From the IMG/VR virus record IMGVR_UViG_3300038701_001945, positions 1 to 21,456 of that record: a stretch of DNA of 21,456 nt, one strand, 5' to 3'. The translations under genes and the position numbers were made by a program. Positions within the stretch are counted from its first letter, which is position 1, and each line of letters begins with the position of its first letter. The notes beneath the pieces were generated by a model. It was not told the origin of the DNA, searched no databases, and was given only the letters and a program-made list of their open reading frames with translations. This DNA is from a virus. Positions 283-18,819 of the stretch are shown in pieces.

Positions 283-1118
283 TAGTTTATAGATTCCCTT
301 AACTTAAGAGTTATCTTTACGCCATTAACATAAACTCCTGAAACATATTCAGGGCTATAGTTATTGACAGCTCTCATTAGATAAATATCTTCGTTTCTGT
401 AGCCGATTCTTTTGAATTGAAATTGCTCTTCGTCACCAGCTGATAACCATATAAGAACCCCACGCTTTCCTAAATAAATTTCTTCAACAATGTTTAAATC
501 GGAATCAATAGACCAGTGCCTAACTTGAAGATCAAAGCCAAAGCCTCCAACACTTTCAGTAACATTAACTTTACCCGAAAGCATTTTAGAGATTTTTTTG
601 TTTGTATCAAATGTTGGTTTTTTAATAATGGGCCAACCAGCAAGTTGACCAGTTACTAAATTTTCTGTAGCAATAAATTGTTTCATTTTTTTATCAGCAT
701 CGGGAACTATAGTTCCTTGAATGATAAGCCTAAGTCTAGATGTTTCAACTTTATCGAACTGATGGAACGTCGTTTCTTTAGTGTTGCCAGTAACGGCAAT
801 AGGTGTTGAGAAGTCTTGATATAAAGCACCGTCCCAGTATTGTATAGTGTAAGAATCAAAGTTGTGACAAACGAGAATCAAAGTATCTAAGTCGCGCTCA
901 TCAGTAAGTTCAAAATCTAACTGAGTTAAAGCCGCATCATCAGAGCCCGTCGTGAGCCACGCAGAAGTGTTGTTTCTGTTCCTAAGAAAATCAACAAAAG
1001 AAGATCCGTCATTTGTAGCGGTCCCATCAGTAACAGTAATCGATGCCAGAGTGTTACTTATATCTAATTTGTTTTTCTTAAAGGCTCTAATCTGTCCTGT
1101 TTTACATTCGATACTCAT
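282..1118 (-). CDS. Distal tail/tail-tip protein with discoidin-like domain
   Basis: This 278-residue protein follows the tape measure directly; its ATG overlaps the tape measure stop as TAATG. Residues about 45-165 look like a coagulation factor 5/8 type C (discoidin, galactose-binding-like) fold: LDFELTDERDLDTLILVCHN, then SYTIQYWDGALYQDF, then a strand ending SRLRLIIQGT. Such domains often bind sugars. The C-terminal part, from about residue 180, is beta-rich (LSGKVNVTESVGGFGFDLQVRH). The first gene after a tape measure in siphoviruses often encodes the distal tail protein, which nucleates the tip complex and may carry carbohydrate-binding insertions. That role is inferred from position; the discoidin resemblance is from the sequence pattern and is moderate. 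Confidence 0.6.
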   Translation of the reverse strand: MSIECKTGQIRAFKKNKLDISNTLASITVTDGTATNDGSSFVDFLRNRNNTSAWLTTGSDDAALTQLDFELTDERDLDTLILVCHNFDSYTIQYWDGALYQDFSTPIAVTGNTKETTFHQFDKVETSRLRLIIQGTIVPDADKKMKQFIATENLVTGQLAGWPIIKKPTFDTNKKISKMLSGKVNVTESVGGFGFDLQVRHWSIDSDLNIVEEIYLGKRGVLIWLSAGDEEQFQFKRIGYRNEDIYLMRAVNNYSPEYVSGVYVNGVKITLKLRESIN

Positions 1119-4096
1119 TATAAATTACCCGTTCCTATGGCTCTTCTTTCGAGCAGTTTTTGTTCAATGAATGGAATAGCCTCATCAGTAAATCCGATAA
1201 CCACATTAGTCCCAGCTTCACCCTCTTCGTTATCCACCTCTGGTCTACCTACCGCTGTGATAAAGTCAGGAGCCAGAGGTGCTGGCACAAGCAATTCTCC
1301 TGGCTGGGTTAGCGTAAGCTGACTGTCACTTGCTCCGCCTAACCCAGGAACTCCTGGGCCGTCAGGTATCAACCCACCACGCTGAGCTGAGGTCACTGCT
1401 GCAGCTTGCTCCGCTCCGTAAAGAACTAAGGCTCCTGCCGCTGCTACGCCAAGAGCTGGACCGATGATCGGAATACCAGCCAAAGAAGAGTATGCTGCGA
1501 TCGCACCTTGAGCTGTTTTAATACCTATCTGAGTAAGCGCTGCAGCTTTACCGATTGCTTTTAGAGATGAGTTTTTAGAGTTCTGCAATTGAACCAATTG
1601 GCCAGCTGTTTGATCAGCAAGCTTAACTTCTTCAGAAGAAAAGAACTGTTTCAATTTAGCGAAGTCAGTTCCAAACTTAACCTCATCTTTTATGAACTGA
1701 TTGCGCCTAGCAATATTTTCTTTTAGCTGATCTTGAGCAGCTTGCTTTTCAATATCTCTTTTTGTTTGTATTTGATTTTGAAACTTTAATAAATCTTCTT
1801 CGTCAAGTAAGTCTCTTTGCTCTTCAGAAAGCTCATTAAGCTCAGCTCTTAAAGCAGCCTCTTCTTCAGCCTGCTCTGTGATCCTATCAAGCTTTGCTTG
1901 ATTGCGCTCTTCTTGCTCCAACACTTGAGCTTCAGCTTCAGCAGAGATCGCACCACTGACTGCCATTAATTGTTCTTTTGTTATTTCAAGTTCACGCTGA
2001 TTAGCTTCTAGAATAGCTTGCTCTTTAGCGTTCAACTTTTCTTTTTGAGAAAGAGCTTCGTTCTCATTCTCTAGTTTATTAATAGACTTCAATAAGTTTA
2101 TTTGTTCAGACTTTAGTTTTAACTGTTGATCAATCGCTTTCTTTTCAGCGTCATCAATCTTTTTTAATTCAGCATCTTTGATGTCAATTCTGTCTCTTGC
2201 TGCTCTGTCATTTTGCTCTTTAAGTAATTCGTTCTCGCGCGCGCGTATCTCGCGTATGCGCGCGGCAGCTTCCTTTTCTTTAGCAATTAATTTTTCAAGA
2301 TTCTTATTATCTTCACCTTCTGGTTTTGAAGCTGGGCCTCTGTCATTAATACCTTCAGGCAATGGAACTTCTTCAGGAGGTGGAAGCTCAGCAGCTTCAC
2401 TCTCTGCAATTGACTGGTTATACGCATCGCTAAAAGCGTCGCCTACACCTTTACCAAGATCAGCCGCCCCTTCAGTGTAAGCTTTTTCTAATTTCTCAAG
2501 ACCTTGCTTTACTTTATCAGTATCAAAAGTAAATGCTCCTAATAAGATATCAGATATTGCTCCGAACCTTTGGCTGAAGAAATTAGAGAAGTTCTCAATT
2601 AGTTTTTTAATTGATGCGAAAGTCCCTAAAGCAATAGCCTTAGTTTCTTTCATGTGAGTTATCATTAACGATAACGCTACAAGAACTAAACCAATCCCAG
2701 TCGCTGCAGCAAAACCTCTTACAGTTGTTGTTGCTGCAATCATCCCAGTTCTAAATAATTGTAAAGCTTTTTTTCCGTTAACTAATGTGAAGTTGTAAAG
2801 CTTCTGAAGCTTAGCCCCAATCCCAGTCGCCGCATTGAAAGCTATAGCTGTGTTTCTTGCTTTAAGATAAACGACTGCTAGGGTAGTCAGCAGAGCTATA
2901 CTTCCCGTAATTGCAAGAGTCCATTTAGTTAAAGTAACAAGAGTAGCCTTTGTGTCTTTATCAAGCTTATTAAACTCTTGAGCCATTGCAGTTAAGGCTT
3001 CTGCTGCAGAAAGTATTGTAGGAGCAAAAGCCTCACCTATTGATACTGCGGCAGCATCATAACTTGCCGTTAACCTTTTGGTGGCCTGATCTAATGTTGC
3101 TTGCTTTGTAGCTAAAGCTTCCTGGAATGTTGCAGACCTTTCGGTTGCATCACCCATGGCATCAATTTGTTTTGCAACAAGTTCTGATTGGGCTCCTGTT
3201 AATGAAAGAACAACGCCCAAAGATTCACTTGATCCAACAAGCCTTTGCATCTCTGCAATGTTTCCATTGGTTGCTTTCTTAAGTAATTCAAGCGACGGGA
3301 CTAAGCCACGCTGTCTAATGTTCTGTAAACTAAGTGCATCTTGTACAGCGGCACTTTCATTTTTAAGTTTTGATTGAACTAAAATAATAGAGTTCAACGC
3401 TGCTTTAAGTTGTGTTGCTGCTTCAGCAGTTGGCTTTGCACCATCGGCAGTTAGGGAAGATAACGAAGCTAGAGTTTCGTCAAAACTTAAACCTAAGTTT
3501 TTAGATATACCAGCAACCTTATTAAATTCTTTTGCTAATTCTCCAACGGTAGTTACACCAAACTTCTGAGCAGTAAAAAACTTTTCAGCAATCTCTGTAG
3601 CAGTGCCAGCCTCATCGCCAAAAGATGTTAGTGTTGCGGCCAGAGCTTTAACGGCTGTGTTTGTATCAGTCGCACCAGCAATCGCTAACTGTGTTGCGGC
3701 CTCTAATGTTTCGATCGATTGTTCTGCAGCTACCCCAGAAGAAACGAGGTTAAATAAACCTTCGTTAAGAGTTTCTAAACTTTCACCACTCTTGGCTGAT
3801 AAGTCTAGAACGCCTGACTTTAAATCATCGATACCTTTAGATAATGTTTTTGTTGAGAACGATCCTTTGTCTAAAAGGGTAACGACGTTTGAAAAACCCT
3901 TTTCAAAAGAAGCGAACCTCGCTACGGCTACGCCGACAGCCCCAGCCAAACCAACGAACGCAGCTGTAGAAACTTTAGCTACGCTGGTTAAGGCCTTCTC
4001 TAGGTCCTTGGTTTTCTTCTTTGCTTTGTCAAGTTCATCGGTAAAGTTTTTAGCTGTCCCGTTGATCCTTATCAGTAGTTCCTGATCGTTTGCCAT
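1118..4096 (-). CDS. Tail tape measure protein (TP901-type)
   Basis: This 992-residue protein is the longest in the window and sets tail length while being threaded through the tail tube. Residues about 60-360 resemble the TP901 tape measure core (FEKGFSNVVTLLDKGSFS, then Ala/Thr-rich helices). Two strongly hydrophobic segments lie at about 391-412 (WTLAITGSIALLTTLAVVYL) and 461-480 (GFAAATGIGLVLVALSLMIT). From about 600 to 840 it is a charged Glu/Lys/Arg/Gln-rich coiled coil. A third hydrophobic stretch near the C-terminus (AGIPIIGPALGVAAAGALVL) precedes a Gly/Pro-rich end, as in many tape measures. At about 0.15 nm per residue the tail would be roughly 150 nm (inference). The start overlaps the frameshifted chaperone end by 47 bases, with AAGG 7 bases upstream. 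Confidence 0.92.
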   Translation of the reverse strand: MANDQELLIRINGTAKNFTDELDKAKKKTKDLEKALTSVAKVSTAAFVGLAGAVGVAVARFASFEKGFSNVVTLLDKGSFSTKTLSKGIDDLKSGVLDLSAKSGESLETLNEGLFNLVSSGVAAEQSIETLEAATQLAIAGATDTNTAVKALAATLTSFGDEAGTATEIAEKFFTAQKFGVTTVGELAKEFNKVAGISKNLGLSFDETLASLSSLTADGAKPTAEAATQLKAALNSIILVQSKLKNESAAVQDALSLQNIRQRGLVPSLELLKKATNGNIAEMQRLVGSSESLGVVLSLTGAQSELVAKQIDAMGDATERSATFQEALATKQATLDQATKRLTASYDAAAVSIGEAFAPTILSAAEALTAMAQEFNKLDKDTKATLVTLTKWTLAITGSIALLTTLAVVYLKARNTAIAFNAATGIGAKLQKLYNFTLVNGKKALQLFRTGMIAATTTVRGFAAATGIGLVLVALSLMITHMKETKAIALGTFASIKKLIENFSNFFSQRFGAISDILLGAFTFDTDKVKQGLEKLEKAYTEGAADLGKGVGDAFSDAYNQSIAESEAAELPPPEEVPLPEGINDRGPASKPEGEDNKNLEKLIAKEKEAAARIREIRARENELLKEQNDRAARDRIDIKDAELKKIDDAEKKAIDQQLKLKSEQINLLKSINKLENENEALSQKEKLNAKEQAILEANQRELEITKEQLMAVSGAISAEAEAQVLEQEERNQAKLDRITEQAEEEAALRAELNELSEEQRDLLDEEDLLKFQNQIQTKRDIEKQAAQDQLKENIARRNQFIKDEVKFGTDFAKLKQFFSSEEVKLADQTAGQLVQLQNSKNSSLKAIGKAAALTQIGIKTAQGAIAAYSSLAGIPIIGPALGVAAAGALVLYGAEQAAAVTSAQRGGLIPDGPGVPGLGGASDSQLTLTQPGELLVPAPLAPDFITAVGRPEVDNEEGEAGTNVVIGFTDEAIPFIEQKLLERRAIGTGNL

Positions 4097-4771
4097 CCTG
4101 ATGCCTTTTTCTCATGCGCGCCATTAAACTGTGCGCTTGCTGCTCTTGTTCTTTTTCCCTCTTTGGAGAAACGATGTTTGGCTTTATAGCTCCTTGCATT
4201 TTTTTATTATGAAGGCCTGCGTGAAATTCCCTTTCTTCTAAATTTTTTCTTTCAATAACTTTCTTAATTCCGTGTAACTGCTTCATTGTTAAGGAGTAGA
4301 ACTGCTCTAACGTATGCCCGTATCTGCTAGCGAATAAGTCATAAACTTCTGCGAAACAAGGATCGCTTAACCTTGCGCCGCCAAGGACTTTTTTAATTCC
4401 ATCTCCTGCTTTATTTCAGCAAGCTGAGGTTGGCTGACTCCCAGAGTTTTTACTATAGCCCCGTAAATCTCCATGATCTTATTCCAAAAATTGTTATCAG
4501 TCTTTTCTTTTTCCACTGCATTTAAAAATGTCGAGTAGTTTCCAAAGTAAGTTTTTCTTCTGAGTAAATGCCACGTCAATCTTAAGACCGCATCAGCGTC
4601 CTTAAAATCAGATATGCGCTCTGATAAAACAGTGATGCCGTCTTTGTTCTCTGGTGTTGCGAACTCATTGTAGCACCACACCTGGGCCGCTAGATCAAAC
4701 GCTCTGATAGTAAACTCTTCACCATCTAATTCAAATTTTGCATCACTTGGATTTAACTCATGGTATTCCAT
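4050..4771 (-). CDS. Tail assembly chaperone, long form made by -1 frameshift (gpGT-like)
   Basis: The long chaperone is read from ATG at 4771, shifts to the -1 frame at A AAA AAG (4394-4388) and continues to a stop at 4052-4050. It would have about 240 residues: 128 from the first frame and 112 from the second. The second frame is open through the shift site without its own start and reads VLGGARLSDPCFAEVYDLF, then YGHTLEQFYSLTMKQLHGIK, ending in a very basic, Gln/Lys/Arg-rich tail. In lambda-like systems gpG and gpGT bind the tape measure and recruit tail tube subunits; the T part contacts the tube. The position between tail tube and tape measure fits exactly. An annotator ignoring the shift would call a separate 78-residue gene from the ATG at 4286, which lies inside the second frame and has no clear binding site. 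Confidence 0.85.
4367..4771 (-). CDS. Tail assembly chaperone, short form (gpG-like)
   Basis: The unshifted product has 134 residues from ATG at 4771, ending LKKSLAAQG at TAA 4369-4367. An in-frame GTG at 4783 would add four residues, but GGTGAGG sits 6 bases before the ATG at 4771, so I prefer the ATG. The protein is acidic to neutral, begins MEYHELNPSDAKFELDGEEF and contains AFDLAAQVWCYNEFATPENK, a pattern typical of tail chaperones that cap or stabilise the tape measure. It is the major product when the ribosome does not slip; the ratio to the long form is normally important for tail assembly. The family is inferred mainly from position and the frameshift arrangement. Confidence 0.85.
   Translation of the reverse strand: MEYHELNPSDAKFELDGEEFTIRAFDLAAQVWCYNEFATPENKDGITVLSERISDFKDADAVLRLTWHLLRRKTYFGNYSTFLNAVEKEKTDNNFWNKIMEIYGAIVKTLGVSQPQLAEIKQEMELKKSLAAQG
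4388..4394 (-). promoter_or_regulatory. Programmed -1 ribosomal frameshift site A AAA AAG
   Basis: In the chaperone frame the codons are TTA AAA AAG TCC, giving the heptamer A AAA AAG, the same slip sequence as E. coli dnaX. AGGAG lies 8 bases upstream and can act as the stimulatory internal Shine-Dalgarno. One base downstream is a GC-rich hairpin, CCTTG-GCGGCG-CAAGG (minus strand 4386-4371). After the shift the next codon is GTC at 4388, in the long open frame. All three elements of the dnaX-type signal are present, although the hairpin is closer to the slip site than in dnaX. Confidence 0.85.
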
Positions 4772-4794
4772 TATTAACCTCACCTTTATTATAG

Positions 4795-4823
4795 TTGAAC
4801 CAAAAAACTTTTCAACGTATTAT
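4795..4823 (+). promoter_or_regulatory. Sigma70-like promoter for the plus-strand gene
   Basis: TTGAAC (4795-4800) and TATTAT (4818-4823) are separated by exactly 17 bases. The -10 box matches the consensus at 5 of 6 positions and the -35 at 4 of 6. Transcription would start near 4830, about 30 bases before the GTG start of the small gene. It points against the late operon. Confidence 0.65.
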
Positions 4824-4824
4824 C

Positions 4825-4848
4825 TGTTATGACAATTTGTTATGACAA
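4825..4848 (+). repeat. Perfect 11-base direct repeat, candidate operator
   Basis: TGTTATGACAA occurs at 4825-4835 and again at 4838-4848, a 13-base period. Each copy is nearly palindromic (TGT-TATG-ACA). The pair lies just after the -10 box, covers the expected transcription start and abuts the AAGGAG ribosome binding site, so a bound protein would block both transcription and translation. Ribbon-helix-helix proteins typically bind such tandem short sites; autoregulation is inference. Confidence 0.6.
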
Positions 4849-4859
4849 GGAGTTACAGC

Positions 4860-5048
4860 GTGCGGCGACTTAAAAAAAGAAAGGAAACTCGATCAGAGAG
4901 ATCTAGCTTTAGGGCGAGTCCAAAAGAGATGAATAAAATAAAATTAAAAGCCAATATGTACACTGAAGGTAATGTGAATGAGTGGATTGTTTTTGCTTCA
5001 ACGAATCACAAGCCACATAAAAATGATTTTGAAGATGCCCCCCAATAA
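4860..5048 (+). CDS. Small ribbon-helix-helix-like DNA-binding protein (antisense cassette)
   Basis: This is the only convincing gene on the plus strand. An ATG at 4842 would give 68 residues, but AAGGAG (4847-4852) followed by 7 bases and GTG at 4860 indicates a 62-residue product. The N-terminus is very basic (RRLKKRKETRSER), then a short strand (SSFRAS), a first helix (PKEMNKIKLKANMYTEG) and a second helix beginning NVNEWIVFAST. This strand-helix-turn-helix order, with the GN(V)xEW turn, resembles small ribbon-helix-helix repressors and antitoxin-like proteins. It has its own promoter, a candidate operator and a terminal hairpin. Late transcription from the other strand would run through it as antisense, so it is probably expressed when the late operon is silent. 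The gene is likely real; its target is unknown. Confidence 0.6.
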   Translation: MRRLKKRKETRSERSSFRASPKEMNKIKLKANMYTEGNVNEWIVFASTNHKPHKNDFEDAPQ

Positions 5049-5058
5049 AGAGGGGCAT
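5035..5058 (+). terminator. Hairpin between the convergent small gene and tail tube gene
   Basis: ATGCCCC (5035-5041) pairs with GGGGCAT (5052-5058) around a 10-base loop that contains the stop codon of the plus-strand gene. It also lies just after the tail tube stop on the other strand. Neither side has a clear run of T, so it may be a weak bidirectional terminator or only an RNA stabilising hairpin. Confidence 0.5.
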
Positions 5059-5063
5059 ACAAA

Positions 5064-5960
5064 TTAGCAGTCTGCAGCTTCTCCTGCACTTGCTGTAATC
5101 TTAGCAATCTTGTCTTCACACTCATCATAGAGTAGGTCAACAGTCAGCTCAGGAATAGCAAACACAGTTTCTTCTAGAGCGATTGGAAAACCAGTTCCAA
5201 CAGCTTTGTACATCTCAATTTCAAAAAGCGATTGATCAGAACGCTTCTGAGAAAGAGCGACAATGCCGTGCTCAGGAAAGTTAGTTGTGCCTTTACCGAT
5301 AATAATTTCACTAACACCACCATTAGCTGCAGCAACTTGGAAAGTAGCTGAGTCACCAACGACTAAAACTATAGGACCGGCAGCTCCTGTGATCTCCAAA
5401 CCAGTGTTCGGGATATCAGCAGCAGTAGCGGCAACCACAGTAATAGGTGCAGCGTTAATCTTAAGACTGTCGTCAACATATTCAAGGGCAGCGCCTTTGT
5501 CGAAAGCGATATCAGACATTAAGTAAACGTCAACAGTTGTAGCCGAAACTGCAACAATAACATACTTGCCATCTTTAACATCAGCCTCAGAGCCAGCTTT
5601 AATTCCAACACTTGCAAGACCAGCAGCGGAAACTAACGAAGTTCCGTTTTTGTTTGCAATAGATTGAAGCACTGAGCCCGTAGCACTTGCAGCAGTCGTG
5701 TTGACTGATGCCCCTAAATAAACTTCAAACAGAAAATCAGGCATAGACTTAACAGTTGACGTGAACGTAGAATCAATTGTTTTAGATTCTGAAGCCCAAG
5801 CAAACTTGTTAGATCCACCGAAAAGTTTTTCTGTCTCAGCAGCGAAGGTAATAGTCCCGCCACCGATTACTTTAAGTATTCCGTAAGGCAACGCATCGGT
5901 TCTACGATAAGGTGCCATACTGTGAATACCGTACACAATACGATTAGATTTTAAACCCAT
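5064..5960 (-). CDS. Major tail (tube) protein
   Basis: This 298-residue protein lies directly before the frameshifting chaperone and tape measure, the usual place of the tail tube gene. It starts MGLKSNRIVYGIHSMAPYRR and is rich in beta-forming, Ala, Val, Thr and Gly residues. The N-terminal 90 residues (ITFAAETEKLFGGSNKFAWA) and the C-terminal 80 (FEIEMYKAVGTGFPIALEET, then a closing PELTVDLLYDECED) look like the two halves of a tube fold. Residues about 95-215 are low-complexity Ala/Val/Thr-rich and may be a surface domain. Hundreds of copies would form the tail tube. AGGAG lies 9 bases before the ATG. The call rests on gene order plus composition; no catalytic motif is expected. Confidence 0.7.
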   Translation of the reverse strand: MGLKSNRIVYGIHSMAPYRRTDALPYGILKVIGGGTITFAAETEKLFGGSNKFAWASESKTIDSTFTSTVKSMPDFLFEVYLGASVNTTAASATGSVLQSIANKNGTSLVSAAGLASVGIKAGSEADVKDGKYVIVAVSATTVDVYLMSDIAFDKGAALEYVDDSLKINAAPITVVAATAADIPNTGLEITGAAGPIVLVVGDSATFQVAAANGGVSEIIIGKGTTNFPEHGIVALSQKRSDQSLFEIEMYKAVGTGFPIALEETVFAIPELTVDLLYDECEDKIAKITASAGEAADC

Positions 5961-11685: not shown

Positions 11686-12090
11686 TTACACCTCCAATCT
11701 AACGTAAACTTCTGTAGCAGAAATAAAACCCTCAACCTTACCAACTAATTGCTCGTTGGCACCTTGAGTGTCACTTATTGTCTGGTCATCAGAAGCATAC
11801 ACTGATGCTTTAAGACTGCCCTGAGTAAACCCAGAACCAGTAATTTGATGTAACCCTTCAGTGAAAACATCACAATCAACGTCGCCATTAGCTCCGTCAG
11901 TATTGTCAACAGTCTCTGAAGATACACCTGCGAAAGCAGCGCCAGCCTCGGCTGCACAAGGGGCAAGAAAACCACCAGGAGTAATCTTAACCAAAGCTCC
12001 ACGAAAAATCTTTACACCAGCTGCTACTGGGTAATTGATCATGCGCGATGCTTTTTCGTTAATTTCTTTCGTGTCAGTTAATGCTGCCAT
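11686..12090 (-). CDS. Capsid-associated protein, DUF2190-like
   Basis: This 134-residue protein lies between the protease/scaffold and the capsid gene. It is beta-rich with YPVAAGVKIFRGALVKITPG, then AFAGVSSETVDNTDGANGDV and a final strand EVYVRLEV. The pattern 'V..G..(I/V)..G.L(V/L)......P......FAGV' is that of the DUF2190 family, small proteins next to capsid genes thought to decorate or cement the capsid. GGGAGGT stands before the ATG, and the start overlaps the previous stop (TAATG). The role as cement is inferred from the family. Confidence 0.65.
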   Translation of the reverse strand: MAALTDTKEINEKASRMINYPVAAGVKIFRGALVKITPGGFLAPCAAEAGAAFAGVSSETVDNTDGANGDVDCDVFTEGLHQITGSGFTQGSLKASVYASDDQTISDTQGANEQLVGKVEGFISATEVYVRLEV

Positions 12091-12521
12091 TATTGACCTC
12101 CCATGCTATTAGCCGAAATGTACTCTTCTTCAGTGATTCCTAACAACACACAAGCTGCCTTGTCTTCTGCAGACAATTTAACTGTTGGTGCAGGTGTTCC
12201 ACCGTTTCCACCTTTAGGATCAGGGTTCATTCCTACAGAAAGAGAAAGGACTTCCATCATTGTAGCGCCTTCTTTTAATTTCTCTAACTGTGCTTTGTTA
12301 ATCTTTTGCTCAGAAAAAAGTTTGTCATACTCAGCGTTTTTCTGAGTAGTTTCTTTTTCGAGCTTCAATGCGTCACGCTCTTCAGTCAATTGCTCAACTT
12401 CTTTTTTGCGAGACTCAAGTAAATCTTTTGATTTATCCACGCTTAACTTTAAAGTGTTAACCTGATTTTCCAAGGCTTGCACTTTGTTGTTATGCTCAGA
12501 CAAAAGAATAGTATCACCCAT
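12090..12521 (-). CDS. Nested scaffold protein from internal start (Mu gpZ-like)
   Basis: Codon 275 of the protease gene is an ATG (12521-12519) preceded by GGAGAG with 6 A bases spacing, a good ribosome binding site inside the gene. Translation from it gives a 143-residue protein, MGDTILLSEHNNKVQALENQ onward, made of the coiled-coil scaffold region and a C-terminal tail (KAACVLLGITEEEYISANSM). Mu makes its scaffold gpZ in the same way from within the gpI gene. The short form would give a scaffold excess over protease. The start signal is seen; expression is inference. Confidence 0.7.
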   Translation of the reverse strand: MGDTILLSEHNNKVQALENQVNTLKLSVDKSKDLLESRKKEVEQLTEERDALKLEKETTQKNAEYDKLFSEQKINKAQLEKLKEGATMMEVLSLSVGMNPDPKGGNGGTPAPTVKLSAEDKAACVLLGITEEEYISANSMGGQ

Positions 12522-13343
12522 TTTTTTCTCTCCATTTTTTAAGTTAAATTTTTCACTAAAACCAACGATAGCATCCATCTTAAGGAAAGGATTATTCACA
12601 AGCGCTCCACCTAATAGTGTTGCACCGTGATTCTCGCCCGTGTGCGGATGTACCCAATCGAGGTTAAACATAGGGCTAAAATACCTGAAATCTCGGTTGC
12701 TCAAAGCGAGCGCCCCTCCAGGTGTCCATTTTACAACTCCTAATAATGTCTGCTCATCATCACTCAAAAACACTTCGCTCAACCAACCTGCCGCTTCTCT
12801 AGTCTCGTGATCGAAGTCCAGTGAGAGATCAATCCCAGTCACCTTATCCTCAAAATTCTTTTTAAAACTTTTTAAATGCTCTGTTGTTAAACTAACTTTT
12901 CCGTAGGCGGCATGATAGCCCTCTACGACTGTTGCTAGCTCAATAATATAAGGAAGGTCAGCTGATAGCTTCATAGTTCCTTTTCCGCCTGGTGTTTTGA
13001 ATACCAGTGGATTCTCCGAAGTCATTGGCCGAAGAAAACCTACGATGATCATTACACCATCTCGAACTTCAACGCTCAACATAGTGTCATTAATGAAAGC
13101 AATTTCATCAAAGAATATGACTGTGTATTTCTTGTCATCCTCTTCGATTGTTAATCCGTAGTCGAGGTAATGAGCTTTTAAAAAATCATTAACAAGCTCT
13201 TCGCTTGTGTAGACTGACTTATCGAACTCAAGGCGTTGATGAATCATTCCATCTTCAACACCCTTTGCTTCGAGAAACTCATCGACTTCTTCTTTTGCTT
13301 CTAAGATTTTTTTATCTAAAAGTAATTCTCTTAATAAACTCAT
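12090..13343 (-). CDS. Prohead maturation protease with C-terminal scaffold (Mu gpI-like)
   Basis: This 417-residue protein has the Mu gpI protease pattern. Residues about 147-253 contain TTEHLKSFKKNF, the IDLSLDFDHETREAAGW block, GVVKWTPGGALALSNRDFRY and ALVNNPFL. The LDFDH and RYFSP stretches are the most conserved and probably carry the active site region. Residues 1-110 are an extra N-terminal domain (LEFDKSVYTSEELVNDFLKA, then GVMIIVGFLRP) resembling one found at the front of other phage proteases; its role is unknown. Residues about 285-355 form a coiled coil (VQALENQVNTLKLSVDKSKD) typical of scaffold. The protease cleaves itself, scaffold and often the capsid during prohead maturation. 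ATGA overlap with the 81-residue gene; GAGG 7 bases before the ATG. Confidence 0.85.
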   Translation of the reverse strand: MSLLRELLLDKKILEAKEEVDEFLEAKGVEDGMIHQRLEFDKSVYTSEELVNDFLKAHYLDYGLTIEEDDKKYTVIFFDEIAFINDTMLSVEVRDGVMIIVGFLRPMTSENPLVFKTPGGKGTMKLSADLPYIIELATVVEGYHAAYGKVSLTTEHLKSFKKNFEDKVTGIDLSLDFDHETREAAGWLSEVFLSDDEQTLLGVVKWTPGGALALSNRDFRYFSPMFNLDWVHPHTGENHGATLLGGALVNNPFLKMDAIVGFSEKFNLKNGEKKMGDTILLSEHNNKVQALENQVNTLKLSVDKSKDLLESRKKEVEQLTEERDALKLEKETTQKNAEYDKLFSEQKINKAQLEKLKEGATMMEVLSLSVGMNPDPKGGNGGTPAPTVKLSAEDKAACVLLGITEEEYISANSMGGQ

Positions 13344-18504: not shown

Positions 18505-18786
18505 CGGCCAACCGGCCAACCTCAAGCCAACTTTTATTCTCCCCCTATATTTATATATAGCCCACAGCGTCATTGCCCAATAGTTTTGCATATATATAAA
18601 TTTATTTTTTAAAAGAAAATAGGAGGTCTAGTTGGCCGGTTGGCCGAGTTATCGGAATCATTAAGCAATTCACGGCCAACCTCGGTTTTGCGGCCAACCT
18701 CTGACTCGGCCCGCATTGAGAACGAATCTCATCACCTAATTGATAACGAGAATCATCCGCAAACGGCCAACCTTTACGGCCAACCT
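18505..18786. repeat. Cluster of CGGCCAACC(T) repeats in both orientations
   Basis: CGGCCAACC occurs at 18505-18513, 18513-18521, 18673-18681, 18691-18699, 18764-18772 and 18777-18785; the last four continue with T. A degenerate copy (AAGCCAACTT) is near 18524. Inverted copies lie at 18631-18638 (GTTGGCCG) and 18638-18646 (GGTTGGCCG). The region directly follows the primase-helicase gene. Such iteron-like repeats usually bind an initiator or regulator, so it is a candidate replication origin or control region. Confidence 0.8.
18536..18620. other. AT-rich core between inverted repeat arms (candidate unwinding element)
   Basis: This stretch contains TATATTTATATATAG and CATATATATAAATTTATT and long A and T runs. 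It is framed by a perfect 16-base inverted repeat, CGGCCAACCGGCCAAC at 18505-18520 and its complement at 18631-18646. Iterons around an easily melted core are the usual plan of a replication origin. The plus strand also shows TTGCCC-16-TATAAA (18573-18600) and AGGAGGT (18621-18627), which could be a promoter for a short transcript. Confidence 0.5.
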
Positions 18787-18819
18787 CAAAGTACGTCGTA
18801 ATGCGTTCAACGCACCTTA

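Follow-up and report, generated by a model that had tools for sequence, protein, structure and literature searches.

A lineage-conserved, inverted ribbon-helix-helix gene with putative overlapping promoters at the tail tube/chaperone junction of uncultured phages

The window analysed here is the entire IMG/VR virus record IMGVR_UViG_3300038701_001945 (21,456 bases), a head–tail–primase block encoded almost wholly on the minus strand. All genes called between 282 and 18229 lie on that strand except one of 62 codons (4860–5048, plus strand), the sole plus-strand gene of the structural block, for which a ribbon-helix-helix (RHH) protein is predicted; what a preliminary description of this sequence had said of every other gene, that it is on the minus strand, holds for this interval. 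The RHH gene is flanked on one side by a putative major tail tube gene (5064–5960, minus strand), with which it converges, and on the other by the gene of the tail assembly chaperone (4367–4771, minus strand), which encodes 134 residues from ATG 4771, as aligned with its relatives, and is the likely target of regulation. The tube gene lies upstream of the chaperone gene, and the tape measure gene (1118–4096, minus strand) lies downstream of it in the same putative operon.

About 90 bp separate the start of the RHH gene from the chaperone ATG, and along the RHH strand they contain, in order, a -35 box, a -10 box, two repeat units, a ribosome-binding site and the start codon. The putative promoter, TTGAAC-17-TATTAT, occupies 4795–4823 of the plus strand (boxes at 4795–4800 and 4818–4823); it is followed, just 3' of the -10 box, by a perfect tandem repeat of TGTTATGACAA (4825–4835 and 4838–4848) with a period of 13, the putative operator, which spans 4822–4848 on the same strand and ends at the ribosome-binding site AAGGAG (4847–4852, plus strand), 7 nt 5' of GTG 4860. 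At the other end of the gene a hairpin, ATGCCCC...GGGGCAT (5035–5058), lies between the convergent ends of the tube and RHH genes and includes the RHH stop codon. Each of these elements, as well as the reading frame itself, was found where the preliminary description had placed it. Taken singly, the elements are weak: a 62-codon reading frame is commonplace by itself, the plus-strand promoter scores an unremarkable 9/12, with 31 promoter-like sites in 20 kb against 39.6 ± 6.3 after shuffling, and only the perfect period-13 repeat is locally rare (p ~0.002), being the sole locally unusual element.

Comparison with relatives indicates that the plus-strand gene at 4860–5048 is real. A search with the tail tube protein returned 30 loci of uncultured phages with 30–80% identity, 25 of which contain the junction after the tube gene and which, with the window, make 26 loci. 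A homologue of the RHH gene lies at the tube/chaperone junction in 24 of these, always opposite to the tail genes (E 7e-9 to 1e-31); the profile used was built from seven homologues, and 17 of the matched loci lay outside it. Two of the loci, L024 and L025, are near-identical; a further one, L045, was found independently of the tube with one RHH protein as query and shows the same junction arrangement. All 16 records that carry the gene, among 18 searched, carry one copy, and in the near-full relatives, whose maps show longest reading frames rather than the calls of a trained gene finder, no other gene of the ~20-kb structural block runs against the rest. In close pairs dN/dS is 0.03–0.2, and pN is smaller than pS in 274 of 276 pairs, a pattern that points to purifying selection. 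Disruption of the gene in related phages had been put forward in the preliminary description as a test; the intact homologues and the low dN/dS decide it in favour of the gene. The two loci without it, L035 and L038, are among those with the most distant tubes; their tube-to-chaperone gaps are short, consist mostly of hairpin and have no room for a pair of promoters, and the tail-tube tree is poorly resolved as to loss versus original absence of the gene.

The start is probably GTG 4860: an in-frame ATG at 4842 would yield 68 residues, but the starts of the homologues, which read M(K/R)(L/I)K and have their own ribosome-binding sites, align to the GTG. When the window RHH protein was used as sole query against viral contigs there were no matches, because the protein is short and divergent, whereas the route via the tail tube succeeded. 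No isolate relative was detectable by tblastn in the phage collection searched, with either the tube or the RHH protein, and among genome contigs neither a prophage nor a host was found with the tube alignment; the alignment of the RHH family offers no segment of sufficient conservation for a scan of the collection.

The core of the family alignment reads roughly fRvt.eEyNkIK.KAnlYt.GN.SEyv.yAalN, followed by a very short C-terminus. Of 23 members, 21 match the Pfam family NikA-like (PF21983), an RHH family, with E-values down to 6.5e-9; the protein of the window reaches 15.2 bits, under the 27-bit cut-off, and is thus related to the family and not classed as a member. No named family was found for it in PHROGs. 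An AlphaFold model from a 23-sequence alignment (mean pLDDT 82.9, with 91–96 for residues 21–50) predicts helices at 21–34 and 39–49 in the RHH arrangement, with the conserved GN.SE turn; the β-strand is not formed in this monomer model because in RHH proteins it pairs between the chains of the dimer. RHH proteins (AtaR2, CopG, ArtA, NikR and Reg576; TM ~0.5) predominate among the top matches of Foldseek; the weakness of these matches is expected for a chain of 60 residues, and they support the fold rather than prove it. Profile and model thus agree on the RHH-like identity that had been read from the sequence, and by both the 62-residue protein is assigned to the ribbon-helix-helix (MetJ/Arc) type.

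These assignments would also accommodate an antitoxin-like or mobilization-like RHH protein of the TacA/AtaR2 or NikA/MobC type, whose main role would be to bind a site of DNA processing or a partner protein, with autoregulation secondary. The best sequence family is NikA-like, the antitoxin AtaR2 is the closest match in fold, and MobC of plasmid RA3 is an RHH protein that represses its own promoter and also aids transfer (PMC4175270). However, no constant partner gene accompanies the RHH gene, which stands alone in most loci and has differing neighbours elsewhere; the C-terminus beyond the RHH core is very short; the gene lies in a tail operon, with no oriT or relaxase context seen there; and no relaxase is present among the genes examined, although the genomes were not searched systematically for one. 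Such a role is highly improbable.

At the level of the family it is the period of the repeat that is conserved. Over 17 loci the longest exact runs at spacing 13 sum to 76, as compared with 46.9 ± 3.9 in shuffles (maximum 57) and with 40–55 at the control spacings 8–12 and 14–26; in the window, only two period-13 runs of at least 9 occur. The sequence of the unit drifts while its period is kept: it is TTGTCATAACA in the window and TGTTTAAC, GTATAAC or TGTTACCGC in other loci, as would be expected if protein and operator had changed jointly. A general test for 10-mer tandems at spacings 11–17 gives p=0.08 only. The repeat overlaps the start region next to the gene's own promoter, as autoregulation requires, and in this respect the autoregulation proposed in the preliminary description fits the sequence. 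When self-overlapping registers are set aside, the window contains no second copy of the operator at up to 5 mismatches in 20 positions; as the tandem occurs nowhere else in the window, the action of the regulator should be local, and the uniqueness of the operator there led to rejection of a global late-gene switch. A palindromic operator was considered as well (TTTGTnnnACAAA in L002, L006 and L008) and rejected, the palindromy being no better than chance (Fisher p 0.87).

The preliminary description had missed a second, stronger promoter on the minus strand that overlaps the plus-strand one. This putative chaperone/tape-measure promoter, TTGAAA-16-TATAAT (4788–4815, minus strand), scores 11/12, more than any other promoter-like site in 20 kb, and faces the chaperone and tape measure genes. 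The two promoters lie back to back on a shared stretch of ~36 bp, with the -35 box of either adjoining the -10 box of the other, and the same geometry recurs in L002, L005, L006, L015 and L019. A scan of promoter pairs over all offsets peaks at -8 with a score of 44.4, where shuffled sequences score 11.9 ± 5.3; when each of 60 shuffles is allowed its best offset, the score averages 26.2 ± 3.9 and never exceeds 35.5. The RHH promoter, weak in the window, is supported at the family level (Fisher p 4e-5) and by its fixed overlap with the opposing one. Overlapping divergent promoters of this kind suggest a regulator and its target.

The hairpin between the convergent gene ends (MFE -19.3, z -3.3) has no T tract on either strand in the window. 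In the relatives, an intrinsic terminator with a T tract stands directly 3' of the tube gene on the late strand in 20 of 25 loci (shuffles 0.16 ± 0.42), and an RHH-strand terminator is found at the hairpin position in 1 of 25. Terminators behind highly expressed structural genes are ordinary; here, the tube transcript is expected, in this lineage, to end ahead of the RHH gene. This speaks against the silencing of that gene by antisense RNA from late transcription and implies that chaperone and tape measure have a promoter of their own.

This bears directly on the model of the preliminary description, in which the gene is a self-contained moron that is expressed while the late operon is silent, autoregulates through the repeat and is silenced in antisense by late transcription. 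Like phage morons, the gene is small, has its own promoter and sits among structural genes, and promoter, repeat, ribosome-binding site and inverted orientation all fit the model, as does some read-through, which the lack of a T tract would permit in the window. Unlike a moron, it is near-constant in its lineage and no sporadic passenger, it encodes a predicted regulatory protein with a conserved operator-like repeat, and a divergent late promoter is conserved beside it. Of the self-contained cassette, the promoter is supported at the family level; the closing hairpin is there, but in relatives it would end the tail-tube transcript and almost never that of the small gene. Finally, 13 records, which may be incomplete, yielded neither a tyrosine integrase nor a resolvase. 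The model as a whole is quite unlikely, and the earlier interpretation is partly supported. A role in lysogenic immunity was likewise considered and is left unsupported by the same search of the 13 records.

Some relatives carry additional inverted genes, and these give weight to a different alternative: an autorepressor of the Aca kind at a moron or anti-defence locus, which would control only its own strand and limit antisense traffic into the tail genes, while the extra small genes on that strand would help the phage early in infection. Such genes, variable in kind, surround the RHH gene in L024, L028, L029, L031, L032, L034 and L045, in five of which (L024, L031, L032, L034 and L045) one lies between the tube and RHH genes; the tandem repeat at the RHH start would suit this role, and Aca repressors are likewise small autoregulators in phage structural regions with variable small neighbours. 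The extra genes lie at 4954–5779 in L024, 5123–5600 in L028, 4957–5645 in L031, 4935–5733 in L032, 3888–4118 in L034 and 2822–3398 in L045; they are almost without family matches, a 144-residue lipoprotein-like protein in L024 being weakly similar to DUF4468, and are candidate anti-defence or host-takeover genes. Against this alternative, the RHH gene is without such cargo in most loci, the window included, no acr gene was recognised, although no search against an acr library was made, and the gene is near-universal in the lineage, its promoter divergent to the structural genes and conserved together with a late one. Known Aca proteins are, moreover, mostly helix-turn-helix proteins. We regard this alternative as unlikely.

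The nearest precedent is the immI region of phage P22, where RHH repressor genes (Mnt and Arc) also lie inside the late operon. There, promoters and operators overlap at the regulator. The P22 system, however, controls an antirepressor, belongs to a temperate phage and is highly variable among relatives, whereas the gene described here is near-constant and sits at the tube/chaperone junction, with no antirepressor, Mnt/Arc pair or integrase found; no RHH-strand neighbour gene that could be an antirepressor of the immI type is present in the window, although the records may be incomplete. The literature searched contained no description of an RHH gene placed in inverted orientation between tube and chaperone genes.

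From the gene, its position, orientation and selection, the period of the repeat, the geometry of the promoters and the terminator, all recovered by comparison of sequences, we infer control of the tail operon by the RHH protein. RHH dimers often repress their own promoters. Here, a dimer would occupy the tandem repeat of 13 bp next to the RHH promoter and thereby repress its own gene, and only one of the two overlapping promoters would be open to RNA polymerase at any moment. Rising levels of the protein would close the RHH promoter and free or help the chaperone promoter, which meets the operator with its upstream edge near -44; alternatively, with the opposite sign, the protein may dampen both promoters. 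Some RHH proteins, such as AmrZ, both activate and repress (PMC3325190). With the tube transcript ending at the hairpin, chaperone and tape measure would be made from a regulated promoter of their own, at times or in amounts that could differ from those of the abundant tube protein. We consider a lineage-conserved, divergent and autoregulated RHH switch of the chaperone–tape-measure operon, as opposed to a moron silenced in antisense, to be a somewhat probable account of the locus. The wider proposal, that apparently non-integrating siphophages possess a dedicated tail-assembly switch, with a terminator dividing the virion operon behind the tube gene, the RHH gene in inverted orientation, and divergent promoters that exclude each other and set the timing or dose of chaperone and tape measure independently of the tube, is more tentative and falls short of being probable.

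Several points weigh against the proposed switch. The tests of spacing 13 and of promoter offset were framed post hoc, with all other spacings (8 to 26) and offsets as controls; the repeat is not convincing in all loci, being weak in L005, L007 and L034; and the Foldseek E-values (2.7 and above) are insignificant taken alone. The promoter scores use the E. coli σ70 consensus, from which that of the host may differ, and the chaperone mRNA is predicted to have a leader of only about 9–17 nt. In seven loci (L024, L025, L028, L029, L031, L032 and L045) extra inverted genes lie between the RHH and chaperone genes, which keep the promoter pair from lying directly at the start of the RHH gene there. 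Lastly, read-through from the tube gene is possible in the window itself, given its hairpin without a T tract.

Late genes of phages are usually viewed as one co-activated block, in which chaperone and tape measure are tuned by frameshifting and translation. If the proposed switch exists, a local regulator with face-to-face promoters would add a transcriptional layer to the control of tail assembly; it would also offer a compact natural case of promoter exclusion, with a protein and an operator that change in step, useful for the study of RHH specificity. The phage collection searched contains no cultured phage of this lineage, so that the switch would have stayed unannotated.

Frameshifting is indeed predicted in the chaperone gene of the window. 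A -1 slippery heptamer, AAAAAAG (4388–4394, minus strand), lies near its 3' end and would lead into a GT-like extension in frame -1 (4050–4367, minus strand), identified by comparison with relatives, for a G/GT-like product of 240 residues. Relatives with a split chaperone gene have AAAAAAG or AAAAAAA and an extension of 100–117 residues; in L021 and L022 the chaperone is a single, longer reading frame of 226–229 residues. Of the neighbouring genes, the tape measure is recognised by PhageMin_Tail (1.1e-23) and by PHROG tape measure families; the tail tube has no convincing Pfam or PHROG match, and its name rests on its position between the head-tail connector genes and the chaperone. Profiles further recognise a primase, terminase, portal, protease, major head protein and connectors in the window.

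An intrinsic terminator also stands directly 3' of the major head gene of the window (10762–10741, minus strand), so that the head block, too, may be split transcriptionally. In the 590-bp gap from the terminase small subunit to the primase, iteron-like repeats of CGGCCAACC occur in both orientations among AT-rich stretches (18505–18787); this region is a possible replication origin. As to the lineage, relatives carry genes of DNA polymerase A and of an SNF2-type helicase, and 9 of 13 records encode a protein of the Pam3_Gp34 family, named after phage Pam3 (for example at 5768–6598 in L053 and 12358–13086 in L055), a possible clue to host or lineage. In the closest relative, L054, a C5 cytosine DNA methylase gene (11815–13023, minus strand) adjoins the terminase and possibly serves self-protection against restriction.
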